A DNA stretch of 51,488 bases from Rhodocyclaceae bacterium (GTDB lineage Bacteria > Pseudomonadota > Gammaproteobacteria > Burkholderiales > Rhodocyclaceae): positions 1 to 51,488 of the forward strand of contig JAGRFQ010000031.1 of assembly GCA_020445945.1 (NCBI GenBank), given 5' to 3'. Both the position numbers and the translations under genes were made by a program. A model generated the notes under the pieces. It was not told the origin of the DNA and ran no database searches. It was given only the letters and a program-made list of their open reading frames with translations. This document shows positions 6,036-13,629 of the stretch, piece after piece; the first letter of the stretch is position 1; every line of letters starts with the position of its first letter.

Positions 6036-7397
6036 ATGCAAGTTGTCGTGCTCGCCGCCGGTCAGGGCAAACGGATGCGCTCGGTCCTCCCCAAGGTATT
6101 GCAGCCCATCGCCGGGCGGCCGATGCTCGCGCATGTGCTGGCGACCGCACGGGCGCTTGGCAGCGCGCAGATTTGCGTGGTGTATGGCCATGGTGGCGAG
6201 CGCGTGCGCGAGGCGCTCGATGCGCCCGATCTGGCGTGGGCCCTGCAGGCCCCGCAGCTGGGCACCGGGCACGCCGTGCAGCAGGCCCTGCCCTGCCTCA
6301 CTGACGGCGAGATGGCGCTGGTGCTGTATGGCGACGTGCCGCTGATCGGCGAAGCGACCCTGCGCCGCCTGCTCGACGCCGCCGGCACCGACCGCCTCGC
6401 CTTGCTGACGGTCGAACTCGACGACCCCACCGGTTACGGGCGCATCGTGCGCGGCGCCGATGGCGCGGTGCAGCGCATCGTCGAGCACAAGGACGCGAGC
6501 GAGGCCGAGCGCGCGCTGCACGAAGTGAACACCGGCATTCTGGTGGCACCGGTGGTGCAACTGCGCGACTGGCTCGGCCGCCTGCGCAACGACAACGCGC
6601 AGGGCGAGTACTACCTCACCGATATCATCAGCATGGCGGTTGACGCCGGCGTCGAGGTGGTGGCCGCCCAGCCCGACGACGTGGCCGAGACGCTCGGCGT
6701 CAACAACAAGCAACAGCTCGCCGAGCTGGAGCGCCGCCATCAGGCCATGCGCGCGTCGGCCTTGCTGGAGCAGGGCGTGACCCTCATCGACCCGGCGCGC
6801 CTCGACATCCGCGGCGCGCTGCGCTGCGGTCAGGACGTGCAGATCGACGTCAACTGCGTGTTTGAAGGCGAGGTCACGCTGGCCGACGGGGTACAGGTCG
6901 GCGCCAACTGCGTGATCCGCAACGCCCGCATCGGCGCGGGCACCCGCATCGCCCCGTTTTCGCACATCGAAGACACGCAGATGGGCGAAGCCTGCGTGAT
7001 CGGCCCCTACGCGCGTACCCGGCCGGGCACCGCGCTGGGCGATGACGTGCATCTGGGCAACTTCGTCGAAGTCAAGAACAGCCGCATCGCCAACCACTCC
7101 AAGGCCAATCACCTGGCCTACGTGGGCGACGCCGACATCGGCGAGCGGGTCAATGTCGGCGCCGGCACCATCACCTGCAACTACGACGGCGCCAACAAGT
7201 TCCGCACCATCATCGAAGATGACGTTTTCATCGGCTCCGACACGCAACTGGTCGCCCCGGTGCGCGTCGGCAAGGGCGCCACGCTGGGTGCCGGCACGAC
7301 GCTGAGCAAGGACGCGCCGGCCGGTCAGCTCACCGTGTCGCGCGCGCGCCAGACCTCCGTGCCGGGCTGGAAGCGCCCGGTCAAGCAACCCAAATAA
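6036..7397 (+). CDS. glmU: Bifunctional UDP-N-acetylglucosamine pyrophosphorylase / glucosamine-1-phosphate N-acetyltransferase
   Basis: GlmU (453 aa) acetylates glucosamine-1-phosphate and then uridylylates it to UDP-GlcNAc, the precursor of peptidoglycan and lipopolysaccharide. The N-terminal nucleotidyltransferase domain begins with [19 protein letters not shown] and YGDVPL motifs follow. From about residue 250 the left-handed beta-helix of hexapeptide repeats runs to the end, including the acetyltransferase segment with [11 protein letters not shown] and NYDGANK. The start at 6036 aligns with the family N-terminus and gives the standard length, although the frame is open far upstream. It is 39 bp from glmS, so the two steps of the pathway are probably one operon. 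Confidence 0.97.
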
Positions 7398-7436
7398 AAC
7401 ACGCCGCAGCGGCGGCCCGGCTTCAGGAGAGATTTC

Positions 7437-9266
7437 ATGTGTGGCATCGTCACCGCCATTTCCACGGAAAACGTGGTCCCCGTGCTGCTCGAAGGGCTGC
7501 GCAAGCTTGAATACCGCGGCTACGATTCGGCCGGCCTGGCCGTCCTGCACGACGATTCGCTGATCCGCCTGCGCTCCGCCGGCCGTGTCGCCGAGCTCGC
7601 CACCATGGCCAACAGCCGCCACCTCGCGGCGACCATCGGCATCGCCCACACCCGCTGGGCCACCCACGGCGAGCCTTCCGAACGCAACGCCCATCCGCAT
7701 ATCTCCGGCGGCCTGGCGGTGGTGCACAACGGCATCATCGAGAACTTCGAAGCCATCAAGGCGGCGATGACCGCCAAGGGCTATGTGTTCGAGTCCGACA
7801 CCGACACCGAAGCGGTCGCCCACCTGGTGCATCACAAGCTCGAAGCCGGAAACGGCCTGTTCGACGCGGTGCGACTCGCCGCCAACGAGCTCGAAGGCGC
7901 CTACGCCATCGGCGTGGTCTGCGAGGCCGACCCCTTCACCGCCATCGTCGCCCGGCGCGGCTCGCCGCTGCTGCTCGGCGTCGGTGAAGATGGCATGTAC
8001 GCCGCCTCCGACACCTCCGCGCTGCTGCAGGTCACGCGCAAAGTGGTGTATCTCGAAGACGGCGACGTGGTCGAACTCAAGCGCGACGGCTACCGCATCA
8101 CCGACCTGGACGGCGCCGCGGTCGAGCGCGCGGTCAACATCTCCTCGCTGTCGGCCGACGCGGTCGAGCTCGGCAAATACCGCCACTACATGCAGAAGGA
8201 AATCTTCGAGCAGCCGCAAGCGCTGGCCAACACGCTCGAAATGATCGCCGGCGGCAACACCATCTCGCCGCAGATTTTCGGTGCCCACGCCAGCGACATC
8301 CTCGGCGCCACCCGCCGCGTCCTCATCCTCGCCTGCGGCACCAGCTTCCACTCCGCGCTGGTCGCCCGCTACTGGCTCGAATCCGTCGCCGGCATGCCCT
8401 GTGAGGTCGAAATCGCCAGCGAATACCGCTACCGCGTCTCGGTCCCCGACCCCGACACCCTCGTCGTCGTCATCTCCCAGTCCGGCGAAACCGCCGACAC
8501 CCTCGCCGCCCTCAAGCACGCCAAAACGCTGGGCATGAGCAAAACGCTGGCAATCTGCAACGTCCCCGAATCGGCCATCGTGCGCGAAACCGCACTGCGC
8601 TTCATCACCCGCGCCGGCCCCGAAATCGGCGTCGCCTCAACCAAAGCCTTCACCACCCAGCTCGCCGCCCTCGCGCTGCTCACCCTCGCCATCGCCAAAC
8701 TCAACAGCCGGCTCAGCAGCGAGGACGAAAACCGCTACCTCACCGCTCTGCGCCACCTCCCCGTGGCCGTCGGCAAGGTGCTCGAACTCGAACCCGAAAT
8801 CGCCCAATGGGCGCAGCGCTTCGCCAGCAAACAGCACGCCCTCTTCCTCGGCCGCGGCCGTCACTGGCCCATCGCCATGGAAGGCGCGCTCAAGCTCAAG
8901 GAAATCTCCTACATCCACGCCGAGTCCTACGCCGCCGGCGAACTCAAGCACGGCCCGCTCGCGCTGGTCGACAAAGACATGCCGGTGATCGCCATCGCCC
9001 CGGCCGACGAACTCATCGAAAAGCTCAAGAGCAACCTGCAGGAAGTGCGCGCCCGCGGCGGCGAACTCTACGTCTTCGCCGACGCCGGCAGCGAAATCCC
9101 CGAAACCGACGGCGTCCACATCCTCCACATGCCCGAACACTACGGCATGCTCTCCCCGGTGCTACACGTCATCCCCCTGCAACTCCTCTCCTACCACGCC
9201 GCGCTGGTCAAGGGCACCGACGTGGACAAACCGCGGAATCTGGCCAAGAGCGTGACGGTGGAGTGA
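7437..9266 (+). CDS. glmS: Glutamine-fructose-6-phosphate aminotransferase (isomerizing)
   Basis: GlmS (609 aa) makes glucosamine-6-phosphate from fructose-6-phosphate and glutamine. Cys2 after the initiator Met is the N-terminal nucleophile of the glutaminase domain (MCGIV), with [20 protein letters not shown] and HNGIIENF motifs. Two SIS sugar-isomerase domains follow ([33 protein letters not shown]). The protein ends in the conserved [11 protein letters not shown], the segment whose codons serve as the TnsD/attTn7 recognition site in many bacteria. A ribosome binding site (aggaga) precedes the ATG. The accessory segment starts straight after the stop codon. Confidence 0.97.
9230..9266 (+). 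other. attTn7-like sequence at the 3' end of glmS
   Basis: The last codons of glmS encode the highly conserved C-terminus used as the target-recognition site by Tn7 and related elements, which insert a short distance downstream. Here the DNA behind glmS changes abruptly to AT-richer, repeat-bearing sequence with an IS fragment and a foreign-looking gene. No Tn7 end sequence or tns gene was seen, so the site is a hotspot by position; which element used it is unknown. Confidence 0.45.
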
Positions 9267-9298
9267 GCCTGGCCTGCCGGCCGCTCACACCAGTTTGC

Positions 9299-9358
9299 GG
9301 AAAACATAGTTCTTTCCTGGAAAACAAAGTGTTTTCCTCGCAAACATAGTTTTTGCCT
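9299..9358. repeat. Three tandem 20-bp repeats, each a small hairpin
   Basis: Units at 9299-9318, 9319-9338 and 9339-9358 share the core AAACAWAGT and end in CCT. Each unit is itself a dyad: GGAAA/TTTCC in unit 1, GGAAAAC/GTTTTCC in unit 2, GCAAA/TTTGC in unit 3. The change from GG..CC to GC..GC in unit 3 is compensatory, which suggests that the hairpin matters. The array begins 33 bp after the glmS stop and touches the left end of the IS remnant. Confidence 0.7.
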
Positions 9359-9487
9359 GAATCGCCCCTCTCCCGGTAGACGCTTTGCAGCCTTAAACTC
9401 AGGCATGTACAGGAGGCGTCATGAGCAGCAAACGGTATCCGGAAGAATTCAAAATTGAGGCGGTTAAAACAAGTCACGGAGCGGGGT
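9358..9487 (+). mobile_element. IS3-family insertion sequence remnant (left end plus start of orfA)
   Basis: An aggaggcgtc ribosome binding site and ATG at 9421 open a frame reading MSSKRYPEEFKIEAVK, the characteristic start of IS3-family OrfA (HTH_Tnp_1). The A4 run at 9466-9469 appears to hold one extra A: removing it continues the family sequence as QVTERG, after which similarity stops. As it stands the first frame ends at 9525 after 34 codons. The 63 bp upstream of the ATG begin with TGAATCGCCCC, consistent with an IS3-type left end. No orfB or right end is present, so this is a dead fragment. Confidence 0.7.
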
Positions 9488-9604
9488 CCTTCCGCGCCGG
9501 ATGTCTTGCAGCAAGAAATCATTGACCATCTTGAGGCGGCATTGATGGCATTTCGGGATGTTGCTGCGGGACTGCCTCGTAGTGCTAGTCGCGATCAAAA
9601 CTGA
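9488..9604 (+). pseudogene. Orphan C-terminal coding fragment fused to the IS remnant
   Basis: Beyond the point where OrfA similarity ends, the frame continues for 38 codons (PSAPDVLQQEIIDHLEAAL..., ending at a TGA at 9602-9604). It reads like the helical, acidic C-terminus of another protein that lost its 5' part through a deletion ending in the IS. A type I methyltransferase (HsdM-like) tail came to mind but cannot be supported from so short a piece. No start codon or ribosome binding site is attached to it. Confidence 0.25.
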
Positions 9605-9672
9605 GGGTAATCGGCGGGGCCTTTCAGGCGGCGACTCAGGAAGCCTAAGCTAGTCGACCGAACAATCATGGA

Positions 9673-9740
9673 TGTTCCGTGGTGTTCCAGGCGCGTTGAC
9701 GATCTCTTTTCTGTCGATATAATGGGAACATCATGGAACA
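9673..9740. repeat. Mirror-image TGTTCC / GGAACA repeats framing the GTPase promoter
   Basis: TGTTCC occurs at 9673-9678 and 9683-9688, upstream of the -35 element. Its complement GGAACA occurs at 9725-9730 and 9735-9740, just after the -10 element and over the first possible start codon. Both pairs are spaced exactly 10 bp, one helical turn, so the promoter lies in the middle of an interrupted palindrome. This looks like a two-site operator that could be bridged by a dimeric or looping repressor. Confidence 0.6.
9696..9723 (+). promoter_or_regulatory. Strong sigma70-type promoter of the GTPase gene
   Basis: The -35 TTGACG (9696-9701) and the -10 TATAAT (9718-9723) are separated by 16 bp. 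This is the closest match to the sigma70 consensus that I saw in the window. The predicted transcription start is near 9730, which makes the ATG at 9754 more likely than the one at 9733 as the translation start. Confidence 0.75.
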
Positions 9741-9753
9741 TCAGAGATTAAAA

Positions 9754-12021
9754 ATGGCGCAGACTTATAGAGCAACAGCAAAGCAAAACCCCGGCAGAAA
9801 GTCTTGGTTGGTTGAATTTCGGCATCCGCTTCGGAATGACGCCAACAACAAGCCCGGCAAAAAGGTGCGCAAGGGTCTTGGCACAGACATTGAGCAAGAG
9901 GCCCAGCGGCTGGTCGAGCAACTGAACAGGCTGCTCGCGGACAAGTCGCTTTGGTCTGTTGGTGCTCAATCGGAAGCGCTCAAGTCTTACGACGAGATCG
10001 TAGTCGAAATTTTCTATGGTGAAATCGCCCCGCGAACCCGGTCTTCTCGTGATCTGCGAGACAGGTTACTGCCGCTGCCTGGGCATGACGAAGGCTATGC
10101 ACGCATCGCTTTGATGGGCGTCCCCGGTGCTGGTAAGACAACTTTGGTTCGCCAGCTTATCGGCACAAATCCGGACACCGAGCGCTTCCCCTCGACGTCG
10201 GCGAATCGGACCACCACGTTTCCGACCGAAGTAGCCCTTCGCGACGGCCCCTACAAGGCCGTGGTGACCTTCATGTCGGAGCATGAGACGCGATTTGAAA
10301 TTGAAGAATCGATCGCCGCCGCGATTGTCGAGGCGGTCGAGGGTGACGAACGAAAGATCGCACGCGCTCTTTTAGAGAAGAGTGATATGCGCTTCCGGCT
10401 AAAGTATCTGCTCGGCGACTATGTTGTTGAGGCCGAAGCGGAGGTTGATCCGTACGACGATGACGCCGGTGATGGCGACAGTGGTGAAGGCGAGAGCGCT
10501 GCTAGTGCCGCTGTTTCTCAGGCGGAGAAAACTCGGCAATTTCAAGTACTGACGACCTACATCCAACGAATCGCAGGCCTTACGCAAGGCCTGAAAGTTG
10601 AGCTAGAGGCCCATCAAGGTGCGATTGCCGATATGTCCTCGGAGGATCGCAGCGCGGCATTGGATTTGATCGAGGAACAAGCATCGGCCTCAGATGAGTT
10701 CGTCGAGTTGGTGTCGGATATTCTCGATGAACTACGGGCCAAGTTCGCTCGCGTACCTGGCGGAAAATTTGAGAAAACGACGACCGGATGGCCGAATGCG
10801 TGGCACCTAGAGTCGCCAGCCGACGAGCGTAACTCGTTCTTGCAGGCGGTCCGCTTCTTTTCCGGTATCTCTCATCAACTATGGGGCAGTTTGCTGACGC
10901 CGCTGGTCAACGGCATGCGAGTAATTGGCCCGTTCAAACCGCAATGGGGCGATCAGGATGCGCGGTTGGTCTTGATTGATACTGAGGGGTTGGGTCACAA
11001 AGCGAATGCCACGGCTGACCTCCCAGAACAAGTGCTGGCGCTGCTGCACGAGGTGGATGTCGTTCTGCTTGTCGATAGTGCGAAGAATGGCATGACAAAC
11101 TTCGCTGCTGGAAAAGCCTTGGAGGGCGTCGTCAATACGGGCCACACTCGCAAGCTCGCTGTTGTTTTCACACACATGGACGCCGTGAAAGGTGACAACC
11201 TTAAAGGGCAAGCAAAGCTTGATCATGTGTTCGGTGGCCTGCGTAACGTTGTCGATAATCAGTTGGCGAAAAATGTATCTGCCGAAGCCGGTCGATATCT
11301 GCTTGATCATTTGAGCAGCAGCACTTTTTACGTTGGCCGAATCGACGAAGCTGACCCAAAGCCAGCCAAGCCGGCACTTGTCAAACTTCTGACCTATCTC
11401 GCGGCAGCGCAGCCACCTGTGTTTGAGCCGGTCGCGTTCCCGGAATACAGCCATGACAACCTTGTGCTCGCGATTCAAGAGGCCGCAAGGGAATTCCGCC
11501 AGCAATGGAAAGGGACACTTGGTCTGGCACCGCACCCGGAGTTCGAACCCAAGGCATGGCAGACCATCAAGGCCTTGAGCCGCCGCTACGCCGAGGGGTG
11601 GGACGATGGCTTTGTCCTACGTCCAACCTCCAATCTACTTGCTGCGCTCTCGGCGGCAGTCTCGCGATTTTTAGAATCACCGATTGGCTGGACTGGCAAC
11701 CCGACCCCTAAGCAAAAGCGGGAAACGATTGATCGTATTAAGAGCGCAGTAACAAAGAACTTGCCAGCACTCAGCACCCGCCGCCTACGCGAACAGTCGC
11801 AACCCGTTTGGCATGAGGCCTATTCACTCCGCGGCACGGGTAGTACTCTCGAGCGAAAAATGCGGATTGAAGGCATCTACGAACGCTGGGTTCCCGTCCC
11901 TGACGCTCGCGGGGATCGAGCGGTGTTCGAGTTCTTAAATGAGGTGAAGAGCGTCGTGACCGCCGCTGTTGATGGCGTGGAGCAGGAAGTCACGACGGCT
12001 GCACCTGCAGTCAAAGCGTGA
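9754..12021 (+). CDS. Large GTPase-like protein of unknown function with recombinase-like N-terminus
   Basis: A 755-aa protein (762 if translation starts at 9733). Residues about 1-65 resemble the arm-type DNA-binding domain of tyrosine recombinases (KSWLVEFRHPL, KVRKGLGTDIEQEAQRL). A P-loop GVPGAGKT is at 122-129, with a switch-I-like NRTTTFPTE nearby. The G3 motif DTEG is at 409-412 and a G4-like THMD at 473-476. The nearly 280 residues between G1 and G3 include an acidic linker (DPYDDDAGDGDSGEGE) and predicted helices, which is unusual for a small GTPase and recalls dynamin-like or other large GTPases. No transmembrane segment is evident. Base composition is clearly lower in GC than in the neighbours, and codons ending in A or T are common, so it was probably acquired. 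It stands alone, with no partner gene in the same orientation. An antiphage or element-maintenance role is speculation. Confidence 0.75.
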   Translation: MAQTYRATAKQNPGRKSWLVEFRHPLRNDANNKPGKKVRKGLGTDIEQEAQRLVEQLNRLLADKSLWSVGAQSEALKSYDEIVVEIFYGEIAPRTRSSRDLRDRLLPLPGHDEGYARIALMGVPGAGKTTLVRQLIGTNPDTERFPSTSANRTTTFPTEVALRDGPYKAVVTFMSEHETRFEIEESIAAAIVEAVEGDERKIARALLEKSDMRFRLKYLLGDYVVEAEAEVDPYDDDAGDGDSGEGESAASAAVSQAEKTRQFQVLTTYIQRIAGLTQGLKVELEAHQGAIADMSSEDRSAALDLIEEQASASDEFVELVSDILDELRAKFARVPGGKFEKTTTGWPNAWHLESPADERNSFLQAVRFFSGISHQLWGSLLTPLVNGMRVIGPFKPQWGDQDARLVLIDTEGLGHKANATADLPEQVLALLHEVDVVLLVDSAKNGMTNFAAGKALEGVVNTGHTRKLAVVFTHMDAVKGDNLKGQAKLDHVFGGLRNVVDNQLAKNVSAEAGRYLLDHLSSSTFYVGRIDEADPKPAKPALVKLLTYLAAAQPPVFEPVAFPEYSHDNLVLAIQEAAREFRQQWKGTLGLAPHPEFEPKAWQTIKALSRRYAEGWDDGFVLRPTSNLLAALSAAVSRFLESPIGWTGNPTPKQKRETIDRIKSAVTKNLPALSTRRLREQSQPVWHEAYSLRGTGSTLERKMRIEGIYERWVPVPDARGDRAVFEFLNEVKSVVTAAVDGVEQEVTTAAPAVKA

Positions 12022-12354
12022 GCAATTTTGATATACGCGATCTAACGGCATTTCCGATTCTTGCGAAATAGGCGATTCATGACAGAAAAATACGTGTTCG
12101 ATTTTGTCATTTTCGCGGTCGCTTGAGTAACAGTGCAAGCAATAAATGACGGAAAAATCTCGGGAGTAAATCGAGCATATCCTGATATAACCAAAAGGCA
12201 TTAGGCTGGATGTCATCCGAACCCTCCCTTTCCTGACGTCCCCGGCCGCCAAACGCGCAAGCGCTGCGTTTCTCGAATCTACCCCATAGACCAGGAGCAT
12301 AGTGCCTGCGGCCGACTTGCGGTGCAATGCCCATTGGCTATTGGCTGATCGTTG
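12022..12354. repeat. Gene-free AT-rich segment with a thrice-repeated ATGACRGAAAAAT motif
   Basis: No credible gene lies in this gap between the GTPase gene and the convergent oxidoreductase gene. ATGACAGAAAAAT (12079-12091) and ATGACGGAAAAAT (12146-12158) are direct repeats, and attttgtcat (12101-12110) is a close inverted copy. The inverted copy and the second direct copy could pair as a stem-loop and may end the GTPase transcript. Base composition returns to the GC-rich norm at about 12230, which I take as the right border of the accessory segment. Confidence 0.5.
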
Positions 12355-13629
12355 CTACGCCGACGCGTCCGCCGGTGCATCCATCCGCGCCAGCATGGCG
12401 TCCTTTTCCGCGCGGATCGCGGGGTGATAGCAGTCGGCGGGTTGGCTGCCGAGGTGGCCGACGCAGGCGTTGCAGTCGATGCAGCGGGGGCCGGGGGTGT
12501 TGTCGCGCAGGTGGCGGTAGAGGTAGGGGTCGGCGATGAAGGCGCGGCCGGCGGAGACGGCGTCGCATTGGCCGGCGGCGAGGGCGGCTTCCATGGCGTC
12601 GCGGGTGCGGAAGCCGCCGACGCAGATGACGGGAATCTTGAGGCGGGCCTTGAAGTCGGGGGTGTAGTCGAGGTTGAAACCTTGCCGCCCGGGCCATAGC
12701 CAGTTGCTGGCCAGTGCGATGAGCGGGCGGAACAGGCGCAGGAGTTGGCGGCGCGGGGTGGGCAGGGCGCCCATGCTGCCGTCGAGCATGTTGCGCAGGC
12801 AGCGGTCGAAGGTGCCGCACACCATGGGGAAGCCGGATTCGTAGTGGCCGACGGAGATTTCGACGGCGTCGACGCCTTCGTTCTGCATGATTTCGGCGAC
12901 GCGGACGAGCTCCGGCGTTTTGAGGCCGTTGCGCAGCGGCAGCCAGTCCGCGCCGTTCATTTTGATGATCACCGGGAAGTCGGGGCCGACGCGGGCGCGG
13001 ATGGCGCGGAACACTTCGCGCCCGAAGCGGGTGCGCTCTTCGAGGCTGCCGCCGTAGTCGTCGCTGCGCCGGTTGGTGTAGGGGGTGAGGAACTGGCTGA
13101 GCAGGTAGCCGTTGGCGGAGTGCATCTGCACGCCGTCGAAGCCGGCGCGCTGGCAGCGCTCGGCGGCGTCGGCGAAGTCGTCGATGATGCGCCGGATTTC
13201 CTCGATCCGCATTTCCCGCGGTCGGGTGCCGGTGAGCAGGTCCTTGACGGCCGAGGCGGAGACGACCTCGGTGGCACCGACGTAGTCGGGCACGATCTGG
13301 CGGCCGCAGTGGTTGAGCTGGGCGAACATTTTGCTGCCGTGGCTGTGCACCAGCCCGGTCAGGCGGGCGAGGCCGGGAATCTTGTCGTCGTGATCGGCGC
13401 CGAGCTGCCAGGGCGCGGATTTGGCCTGGCGGCTGATGTAGATGTTGCCGGTGATGATGAGCGGGGTGCCGGCGTGGGCCATCGGGCGGTAGAAGTCGAG
13501 CACCGCGTCGGTGACGAAGCCGTCGGCGGTGGCGCGGGTTTCGGCGGTGGCGGTCTTGAACAGACGGCCGGGGAGTTCGAGCGTGCCGATTCGCAGGGGT
13601 GAAAACAGAGGGCTGGCGGCGGTGGGCAT
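12355..13629 (-). CDS. NADH:flavin oxidoreductase, Old Yellow Enzyme family
   Basis: A 424-aa TIM-barrel flavoprotein of the Old Yellow Enzyme family, expected to reduce activated C=C bonds using NAD(P)H and FMN. Family features include QLNHCGRQ (substrate/FMN contact), GFDGVQMHSANGYLLSQFL, the NRRSDDYGGSLEERTRF signature and VGGFRTRD plus GRAFIADP at the phosphate-binding end. A cysteine-rich tail (CIDCNACVG and DCYHPA) resembles part of the iron-sulfur region of the larger dienoyl-CoA reductases, but the second flavin domain is absent. I chose the ATG at 13629 because ggag lies 8 bases upstream; the frame is open for 16 more codons. The substrate is unknown. Confidence 0.88.
   Translation of the reverse strand: MPTAASPLFSPLRIGTLELPGRLFKTATAETRATADGFVTDAVLDFYRPMAHAGTPLIITGNIYISRQAKSAPWQLGADHDDKIPGLARLTGLVHSHGSKMFAQLNHCGRQIVPDYVGATEVVSASAVKDLLTGTRPREMRIEEIRRIIDDFADAAERCQRAGFDGVQMHSANGYLLSQFLTPYTNRRSDDYGGSLEERTRFGREVFRAIRARVGPDFPVIIKMNGADWLPLRNGLKTPELVRVAEIMQNEGVDAVEISVGHYESGFPMVCGTFDRCLRNMLDGSMGALPTPRRQLLRLFRPLIALASNWLWPGRQGFNLDYTPDFKARLKIPVICVGGFRTRDAMEAALAAGQCDAVSAGRAFIADPYLYRHLRDNTPGPRCIDCNACVGHLGSQPADCYHPAIRAEKDAMLARMDAPADASA

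Follow-up and report, generated by a model that had tools for sequence, protein, structure and literature searches.

The window, by which we mean the whole analysed stretch of 51,488 nucleotides from a Rhodocyclaceae bacterium, carries between glmS and a flavin oxidoreductase gene a large GTPase gene, P0001, that is single-copy in its own genome (Table 1). In the sister genome whose copy of this oxidoreductase is the most similar (93%), the two flanking genes are the same but enclose unrelated genes, one of which has a PEP-CTERM motif, and homology stops just past the glmS stop codon; the site had been proposed as a mobile-element hotspot, and this comparison bears out that it is variable. The GC content is 0.561 for the P0001 gene, 0.546 for positions 9267–12340 and 0.676 for the window. 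The transposase-like remnant upstream of P0001 resembles an IS3-type OrfA. Right after glmS, at 9302–9359, lie three imperfect 18-nt direct repeats of the AAACATAGTTCTTTCCTG type with 20-bp spacing, a pattern with two matches within two mismatches in the own genome, both at this place. The GTPase gene also adjoins glmS in two other loci, L063 and L089.

Table 1. Features of the segment between glmS and the flavin oxidoreductase gene, in positions of the window
Feature	Positions	Strand	Description and basis
Variable segment glmS–flavin oxidoreductase	9267–12376	.	Unrelated genes there in the closest sister genome
Short transposase OrfA-like remnant	9421–9525	+	34 aa; weak HTH_Tnp_1 match (E 0.0043, below cut-off)
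Putative operator, upstream direct pair	9670–9688	+	GGATGTTCC (9670–9678), TGGTGTTCC (9680–9688); 10-bp period
Predicted sigma-70-type promoter	9696–9723	+	TTGACG-16-TATAAT (11/12); between the two operator pairs
Putative operator, downstream inverted pair	9725–9743	-	GGAACATCA (9725–9733), GGAACATCA (9735–9743); 10-bp period
Large GTPase gene P0001	9754–12021	+	Open reading frame list, 755 aa; alternative ATG at 9733
Predicted N-terminal arm-type (integrase AB-like) domain	9754–9939	+	aa 1–62; AlphaFold2, hhalign, profile search
G1/P-loop	10117–10140	+	GVPGAGKT, aa 122–129
Switch I/G2	10186–10215	+	FPSTSANRTT, aa 145–154
Predicted, mostly helical G2–G3 insert	10279–10863	+	aa ~176–370 (~195 residues); AlphaFold2, conservation
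G3	10978–10998	+	DTEGLGH, aa 409–415
G4	11170–11181	+	THMD (family THFD), aa 473–476
Predicted helical C-terminal region	11206–12018	+	aa 485–755; AlphaFold2

The GTPase and its predicted fold

Beside the open reading frame, P0001 is backed by full-length homologues. ATG 9754 is the better start codon, because the family alignment begins there and because an operator half-site (9735–9743) lies between it and the alternative ATG. The protein has the conserved G1, switch-I threonine and G3 DxxG of TRAFAC/P-loop GTPases; among the 80 aligned family sequences, G1 reads GTTGAGKT in 66, G3 reads DGEGLGH in 49 and DGQGLGH in 20, and G4 reads FTHFD in at least 66. The G4 sequence TH[FM]D departs from [NT]KxD in that His replaces Lys. 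The original prediction of a clear G1 and G3, a G4-like THMD and a spacing of some 280 residues between G1 and G3 agrees with what is found, the distance from K128 to D409 being 281 residues. The sensitive profile search proposed with it gave a divided answer, as P0001 scored above the cut-off of MMR_HSR1 (31.1 bits against 21.9) and passed no other curated cut-off in Pfam, NCBIfam, PADLOC or PHROGs, so that it falls into no other known family there. No confident match was found among the PADLOC 2023 defence families (best E 0.0049), the LeoA profile of PADLOC giving E 0.0052 and 13.9 bits and no family-level match, and the PDB sequence search returned just weak P-loop matches, including EHD4 (E 0.017 over aa 435–646).

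The AlphaFold2 model, made with 80 sequences (pLDDT 89.2, pTM 0.88), places in order a three-strand/one-helix N-domain, short helices, a GTPase core from residue 116, the insert, G3, G4 and a helical C-terminus. By this model the helical insert accounts for the excess length over an ordinary GTPase, which fits the unusual insertion with an acidic linker and helices that had been described from the letters; the linker (about aa 226–245) is of low confidence, with pLDDT below 50 at 233–243, and residues 226–300 are the least conserved part of the G2–G3 stretch. The top Foldseek matches in the PDB are SynDLP (2.5e-6 and 8.8e-6) and IniA (4.6e-5), followed by dynamin, Toc34, mitofusin, BDLP and LeoA at 0.008–0.04, but the SynDLP match with E 2.5e-6 has TM-scores of only 0.24/0.34 and an rmsd of 25. 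In sequence, Dynamin_N matches P0001 with 25.8 bits (cut-off 27) and, at E 1e-3, 4 of 64 members, compared with 33 of 64 for the generic P-loop model AAA_22, and hhalign of the family against 27 bacterial dynamin-like proteins gave 17.9%. No match under 1e-3 was found in the BFVD structure search. With such low TM-scores and weak sequence kinship, the predicted fold is best called loosely dynamin-like, and the protein not a proven dynamin.

Spread of the family and its neighbourhoods

The family, which carries no name, occurs full-length in at least 80 genome loci (the best 80 of at least 98) as well as on plasmids and in prophages. We found no published description of it, in a search that had most of the subscription literature outside its scope and does not prove absence. 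Matches were found in 5 of 150 genomes of the bacterial family, the window's own included, of which one (G107) is a chance match and one (G061) a decayed copy. The G107 match, L005, runs antisense to another gene and was rejected as a homologue. The copy in G061 (L004/L007) is in pieces, and its adjoining frames read by eye like AbiEi and AbiEii. The gene is present in 11 of 72,556 plasmid records, in none of 50,697 phage records and on 16 viral contigs. Identity to the window protein is mostly 32–40% over the whole length. The closest relative among the matches listed is L140 (G502:C105), from another family of the same order, with 78% over aa 1–596, followed by L097 on a viral contig with 49%; the 78% of L140, against about 36% for most members, may reflect either a recent transfer or a close lineage. 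The tree, built from 87 members that include neither L140 nor the plasmid members L012–L015, has 15 phylum-level groups whose labels are clustered but broken, with 25 changes against a minimum of 14.

Defence genes abound around the GTPase genes. With PADLOC models at E up to 1e-10, the genes beside the GTPase matched 292 families in one set of 149 and 195 in another of 133, compared with 63 in 143 control genes, where the counts are of families, not proteins, and related models inflate both sides; the tally of neighbours that had been proposed as a check thus came out on the side of defence. The neighbour set comprised 289 genes within two places of the GTPase, of which 286 were aligned (three rows of the broken L090 were left out) and 282 scanned with PADLOC (four long proteins were excluded), and the control genes were 143 of 152 picked by a set rule in 20 regions of those genomes, three of these regions having few gene calls. 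Named matches among the 25 commonest families listed for each scan include AbiE, a CBASS cyclase and phospholipase, HerA, SIR2, BrxA, DrmD, Mokosh, Shedu and type I restriction-modification (R-M). The annotated plasmids are partly in line with this: plasmid L010 has a patatin and a nucleotidyltransferase directly downstream, L013 BrxL with AbiE, L014 type I R-M, L015 an Abi gene, L012 and L016 an N-6 methylase directly upstream, and L009 no defence gene.

Of the 16 viral contigs, 11 have the GTPase gene in antisense orientation amid phage tail genes, where morons are typically found. PHROG names for 72 of 75 neighbours include tail terminator (11), minor tail (9), tail assembly chaperone (8) and head decoration (5). 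No partner gene common to the whole family was found among the neighbours, in keeping with the original view of P0001 as a single-gene system. In a proteobacterial subgroup (L077:12235–13701, L078, L079 and L002) a 489-aa protein with a SEC-C motif begins at the GTPase stop codon and is a possible subgroup partner, the Pfam assignment having been made on L077. A HipA_C protein is encoded upstream on the other strand in L058 (7940–9781; Pfam on L058), and frames of equal length occupy that place in L066 and L075. An integrase HMM had eight matches near the GTPases, two of them the GTPases L072 and L073 themselves and six integrases, four of these in genome loci, with no integrase in 400 kb of control sequence; six integrases are too few for an enrichment to be claimed.

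The operator and the N-terminal domain

The P0001 gene had been thought to possess a regulated promoter of its own, and the sequence upstream fits this, with a near-consensus promoter (one pattern found, shuffle mean 0.3) flanked by two putative operator pairs. Their cores read GATGTTCC/GTGTTCC upstream and GGAACATC/GGAACATC downstream with a 10-bp period, the inverted pair stops 10 bp 5' of the start codon, and its core pattern occurs once in the whole own genome. Across the family, four half-sites, arranged as one direct and one inverted pair, scored above every one of 60 dinucleotide shuffles in 77 of 104 upstream regions (108 less L003, L016, L083 and L090, which were set aside), and 269 half-sites give the consensus cGTTGTtCC with an invariant TGT. 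Within a pair the half-sites repeat every 10 or 11 bp (9 in one case). The two pairs are separated by a median of 46 bp (7–67) and enclose a strict promoter pattern in 35 of 72 cases, and the median distance from the end of the second pair to the start codon is 10 bp. The four 7-mers are identical in 35 of the 77, mostly as GTTGTTC, in hosts that include Chloroflexi, cyanobacteria, actinobacteria and proteobacteria, and the operator-bearing upstream regions are otherwise dissimilar (median ungapped identity 0.265). By tree label, the 77 members represent 13 of 15 phylum groups, a Bacillota case (L047) being nearly identical to a proteobacterial one and possibly a binning error. Of five held-out members unused in the earlier operator tests, three have both pairs, one has one pair and one has none; L140 has a direct pair by rule and a weaker inverted pair read by eye.

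In the scans made, the operator appears specific to the GTPase gene. The exact four-site pattern was found on nine of 2.9 million viral contigs, all nine of which carry the GTPase gene with the four sites directly upstream, and a three-site pattern in 1 of 398 genomes of the phylum, again with the GTPase gene directly downstream. The 49% relative L097 shares the operator layout in different letters; at L097:977–1053 the half-site variant is GATGTGCC/GGTGTGCC, compared with GATGTTCC in the window and GTTGTTCC in most members, and this variant offers a way to map specificity residues in the arm domain.

The AB domain of integrases is described, in the accessible text of PMC8138268, as three strands and one helix of highly variable sequence. 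The N-domain of P0001 has this make-up at its N-terminus, with strands at 8–11, 18–28 and 34–41 and a helix at 47–62 in the AlphaFold2 model, and it is basic (net charge +5 to +13 over aa 1–45 in 73 members). Pfam DUF6538, which forms the N-terminus of tyrosine recombinases in the genomes of two relatives, weakly matches 25 of 71 members (best 5e-4). A profile of the N-domain searched against 399 genomes found seven strong places, all family members by tblastn, of which one (L150) is broken, and nine weaker places, seven of them N-termini of PF00589 integrases. Against 39 non-redundant integrases of one clade, hhalign gave 95.9% (E 5.6e-9, 34 columns). As controls, other regions of these integrases scored 1.3% and 5.3%, and none of 60 column shuffles exceeded 4.8%; this clade was reached through a match of the same profile and the test was therefore not blind. 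None of 37 integrases sampled independently of the profile reached 3 bits (37 of 40 regions, three without a usable frame being left out). Foldseek with the N-domain alone found no integrase and nothing under E 0.2, no DUF6538 integrase was found on the viral contigs scanned, and the PF00589 catalytic domain had no match in P0001 at E up to 1. The original assignment to the arm-type fold thus stands as far as profile searches, hhalign and fold go and fails in Foldseek with the N-domain alone and in the independent sample; the high sequence variability reported in the accessible text of PMC8138268 fits both outcomes. The sequence link to integrase arms comes from a single clade, to which the profile itself had led.

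The arm domain and the operator go together. The operator is present in 77 of 93 arm-bearing and 0 of 11 arm-less members (Fisher 5.8e-8, a p-value inflated by relatedness), or in 72 of 88 arm-bearing members without near-identical upstream regions. A scan with the consensus found both pairs in 74 of 93 arm-bearing members, 0 of 11 arm-less members and 0 of 294 control genes, and any pair in 86, 0 and 4, respectively. The operator-test counts use mis-set starts for L061, L081 and L084; from the right start, L061 has both pairs and L081 and L084 have none. Of the 16 arm-bearing members that failed the shuffle test, some have displaced pairs or a single pair. In seven (L020, L040, L072, L073, L081, L082 and L084) an arm is present but no pair was found even after the start had been corrected, which shows that an arm can be kept where the operator is missing; their sites may have diverged, or the arm may have another target. 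No hidden arm was found upstream of the 11 arm-less members (best 8.1 bits in L014, others at most 4.7), compared with 71–108 bits for 12 arm-bearing controls in the same scan.

Seven of the 11 arm-less members are in the tree, at about four places: L095, L086, L093 and an Actinomadura/Nocardia set. The sister of L086, L085, has arm and operator, as have L039 and L048 near the Actinomadura/Nocardia set, and these two comparisons are the few clean cases of co-absence. L093 is not a clean case, because its arm-bearing relatives L081, L082 and L084 also lack the operator, and L032, a relative of L095, has a single pair. In the arm-less Actinomadura member L091 a frame of 1123 aa (7334–10705) places about 480 residues ahead of the GTPase, either as an overlong frame or as another N-terminal fusion. 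Since the arm co-occurs with the operator in its own promoter, its likely job is autoregulation and not recombination or the sensing of foreign DNA. The arm domain most likely binds its own operator, and autoregulation of the GTPase gene is well supported at the level of sequence; the sequence evidence for such a self-operator is strong and, as far as the papers searched go, new.

A proposed role and known systems

As a whole, P0001 is best explained as an undescribed, self-repressing, single-gene large GTPase with a probable anti-phage role, to which we give a probability of about 0.6. The N-domain would be an integrase-type arm-binding domain on tandem cGTTGTtCC half-sites, the direct pair upstream and the inverted pair downstream of the promoter, and its binding would repress that promoter in a way similar to the autorepression of some phage integrases; we hold this binding and repression to be very probable. 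GTP-driven assembly of the dynamin-like part would be the probable anti-phage action of the carrier island, plasmid or prophage, with the odds slightly in favour of the anti-phage role and about even for the dynamin-like assembly. Engagement of the GTPase by a phage-made trigger, a membrane or an oligomer might draw the protein off the operator and raise expression, a step that we regard as doubtful. The resulting picture of a one-gene immune switch, in which an integrase-derived arm holds the GTPase on the promoter as its own repressor until nucleotide-driven assembly on infection frees the operator and arms the response with no separate sensor or regulator, is likewise doubtful.

The most credible rival, if still unlikely, is a GTPase that remodels membranes and owes its horizontal spread to something other than defence, such as stress repair or a place as superinfection-neutral prophage cargo. 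It suits a fold nearest to SynDLP, IniA and dynamin, and has against it the patchy spread (5 of 150 genomes of the bacterial family, one by chance), the prophage and island locations and the defence-rich neighbours. These neighbours, the basic arm and the several arm-bearing members without an operator would instead suit an arm that senses invading phage or plasmid DNA on which the GTPase assembles, the promoter sites being secondary. We think this improbable, as the motif stands only before the GTPase gene in the scans made (9 of 9 viral contigs, 1 of 398 genomes), the core pattern has no second copy in the own genome and 11 members keep the GTPase without an arm.

The element-maintenance role once proposed as an option fares a little worse. 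Plasmid partition loci have iterons flanking their own promoter and a nucleotide hydrolase fused to a DNA-binder, and the P0001 gene, some copies of which are on plasmids, would share both traits; the four iterons would be a centromere bound by the arm, and the GTPase would move or tether DNA. What counts against it is that copies in chromosomes and prophages are common whereas only 11 of 72,556 plasmid records have the gene; the at least 80 genome loci, the prophage copies antisense among tail genes and the 11 members that keep the GTPase without arm and operator also speak against it. Least probable is a separate regulator on the operator with the arm serving another job. Autobinding by the arm is itself a prediction, which leaves this reading some room, but no neighbour is conserved family-wide, none of the 11 arm-less members has the operator, and its occurrence in 13 of 15 phylum groups is too broad for one host regulator. 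With the reading as a self-repressing GTPase, a large, phyla-wide family gains a regulatory mechanism proposed from sequence alone.

Among known systems, the AB domain of tyrosine recombinases, including the DUF6538 type, resembles the P0001 arm in its three strands and one helix, its basic character, its N-terminal place and the 95.9% with one clade, but is attached to core-binding and catalytic domains where the P0001 arm is attached to a GTPase. An integrase arm domain may have been recruited here to bind an operator as part of a fusion protein. SynDLP, IniA, BDLP and LeoA are among the best Foldseek neighbours and combine a GTPase with long helical parts; P0001 differs in its G2–G3 helical insert and predicted integrase arm, and sequence kinship is weak. 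The core GTPase fold of Toc34/AIG1 (GIMAP) gives the lowest rmsd (4.8–5.9) of the 50 Foldseek matches listed, in alignments of about 170 columns, and AIG1 matches 2 of 64 members; these GTPases are eukaryotic, unlike the bacterial P0001 family, and to our knowledge have no such insert and no arm domain. Eleos is a large GTPase linked to phage resistance, as is LeoA, a PADLOC defence model. DynA of Bacillus subtilis, a different protein from P0001, shares this trait in the accessible text of PMC8844932. P0001 is a candidate single-gene large-GTPase defence and may be a bacterial counterpart of Mx, GBP and dynamin-type immunity. For the proposed autoregulation, the nearest likeness is the integrase IntS of KplE1, which represses its own promoter; its authors point to an arm-type site at the -10 box, the role of which mutation could not isolate (accessible text of PMC2951348). 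Predicted tandem sites overlapping the own promoter are likewise found at the P0001 locus. The IntS sites belong to the recombination region attL, and a second protein, TorI, also represses (accessible text of PMC2951348), whereas the P0001 locus has no recombination module and a symmetric putative operator of a direct and an inverted pair.
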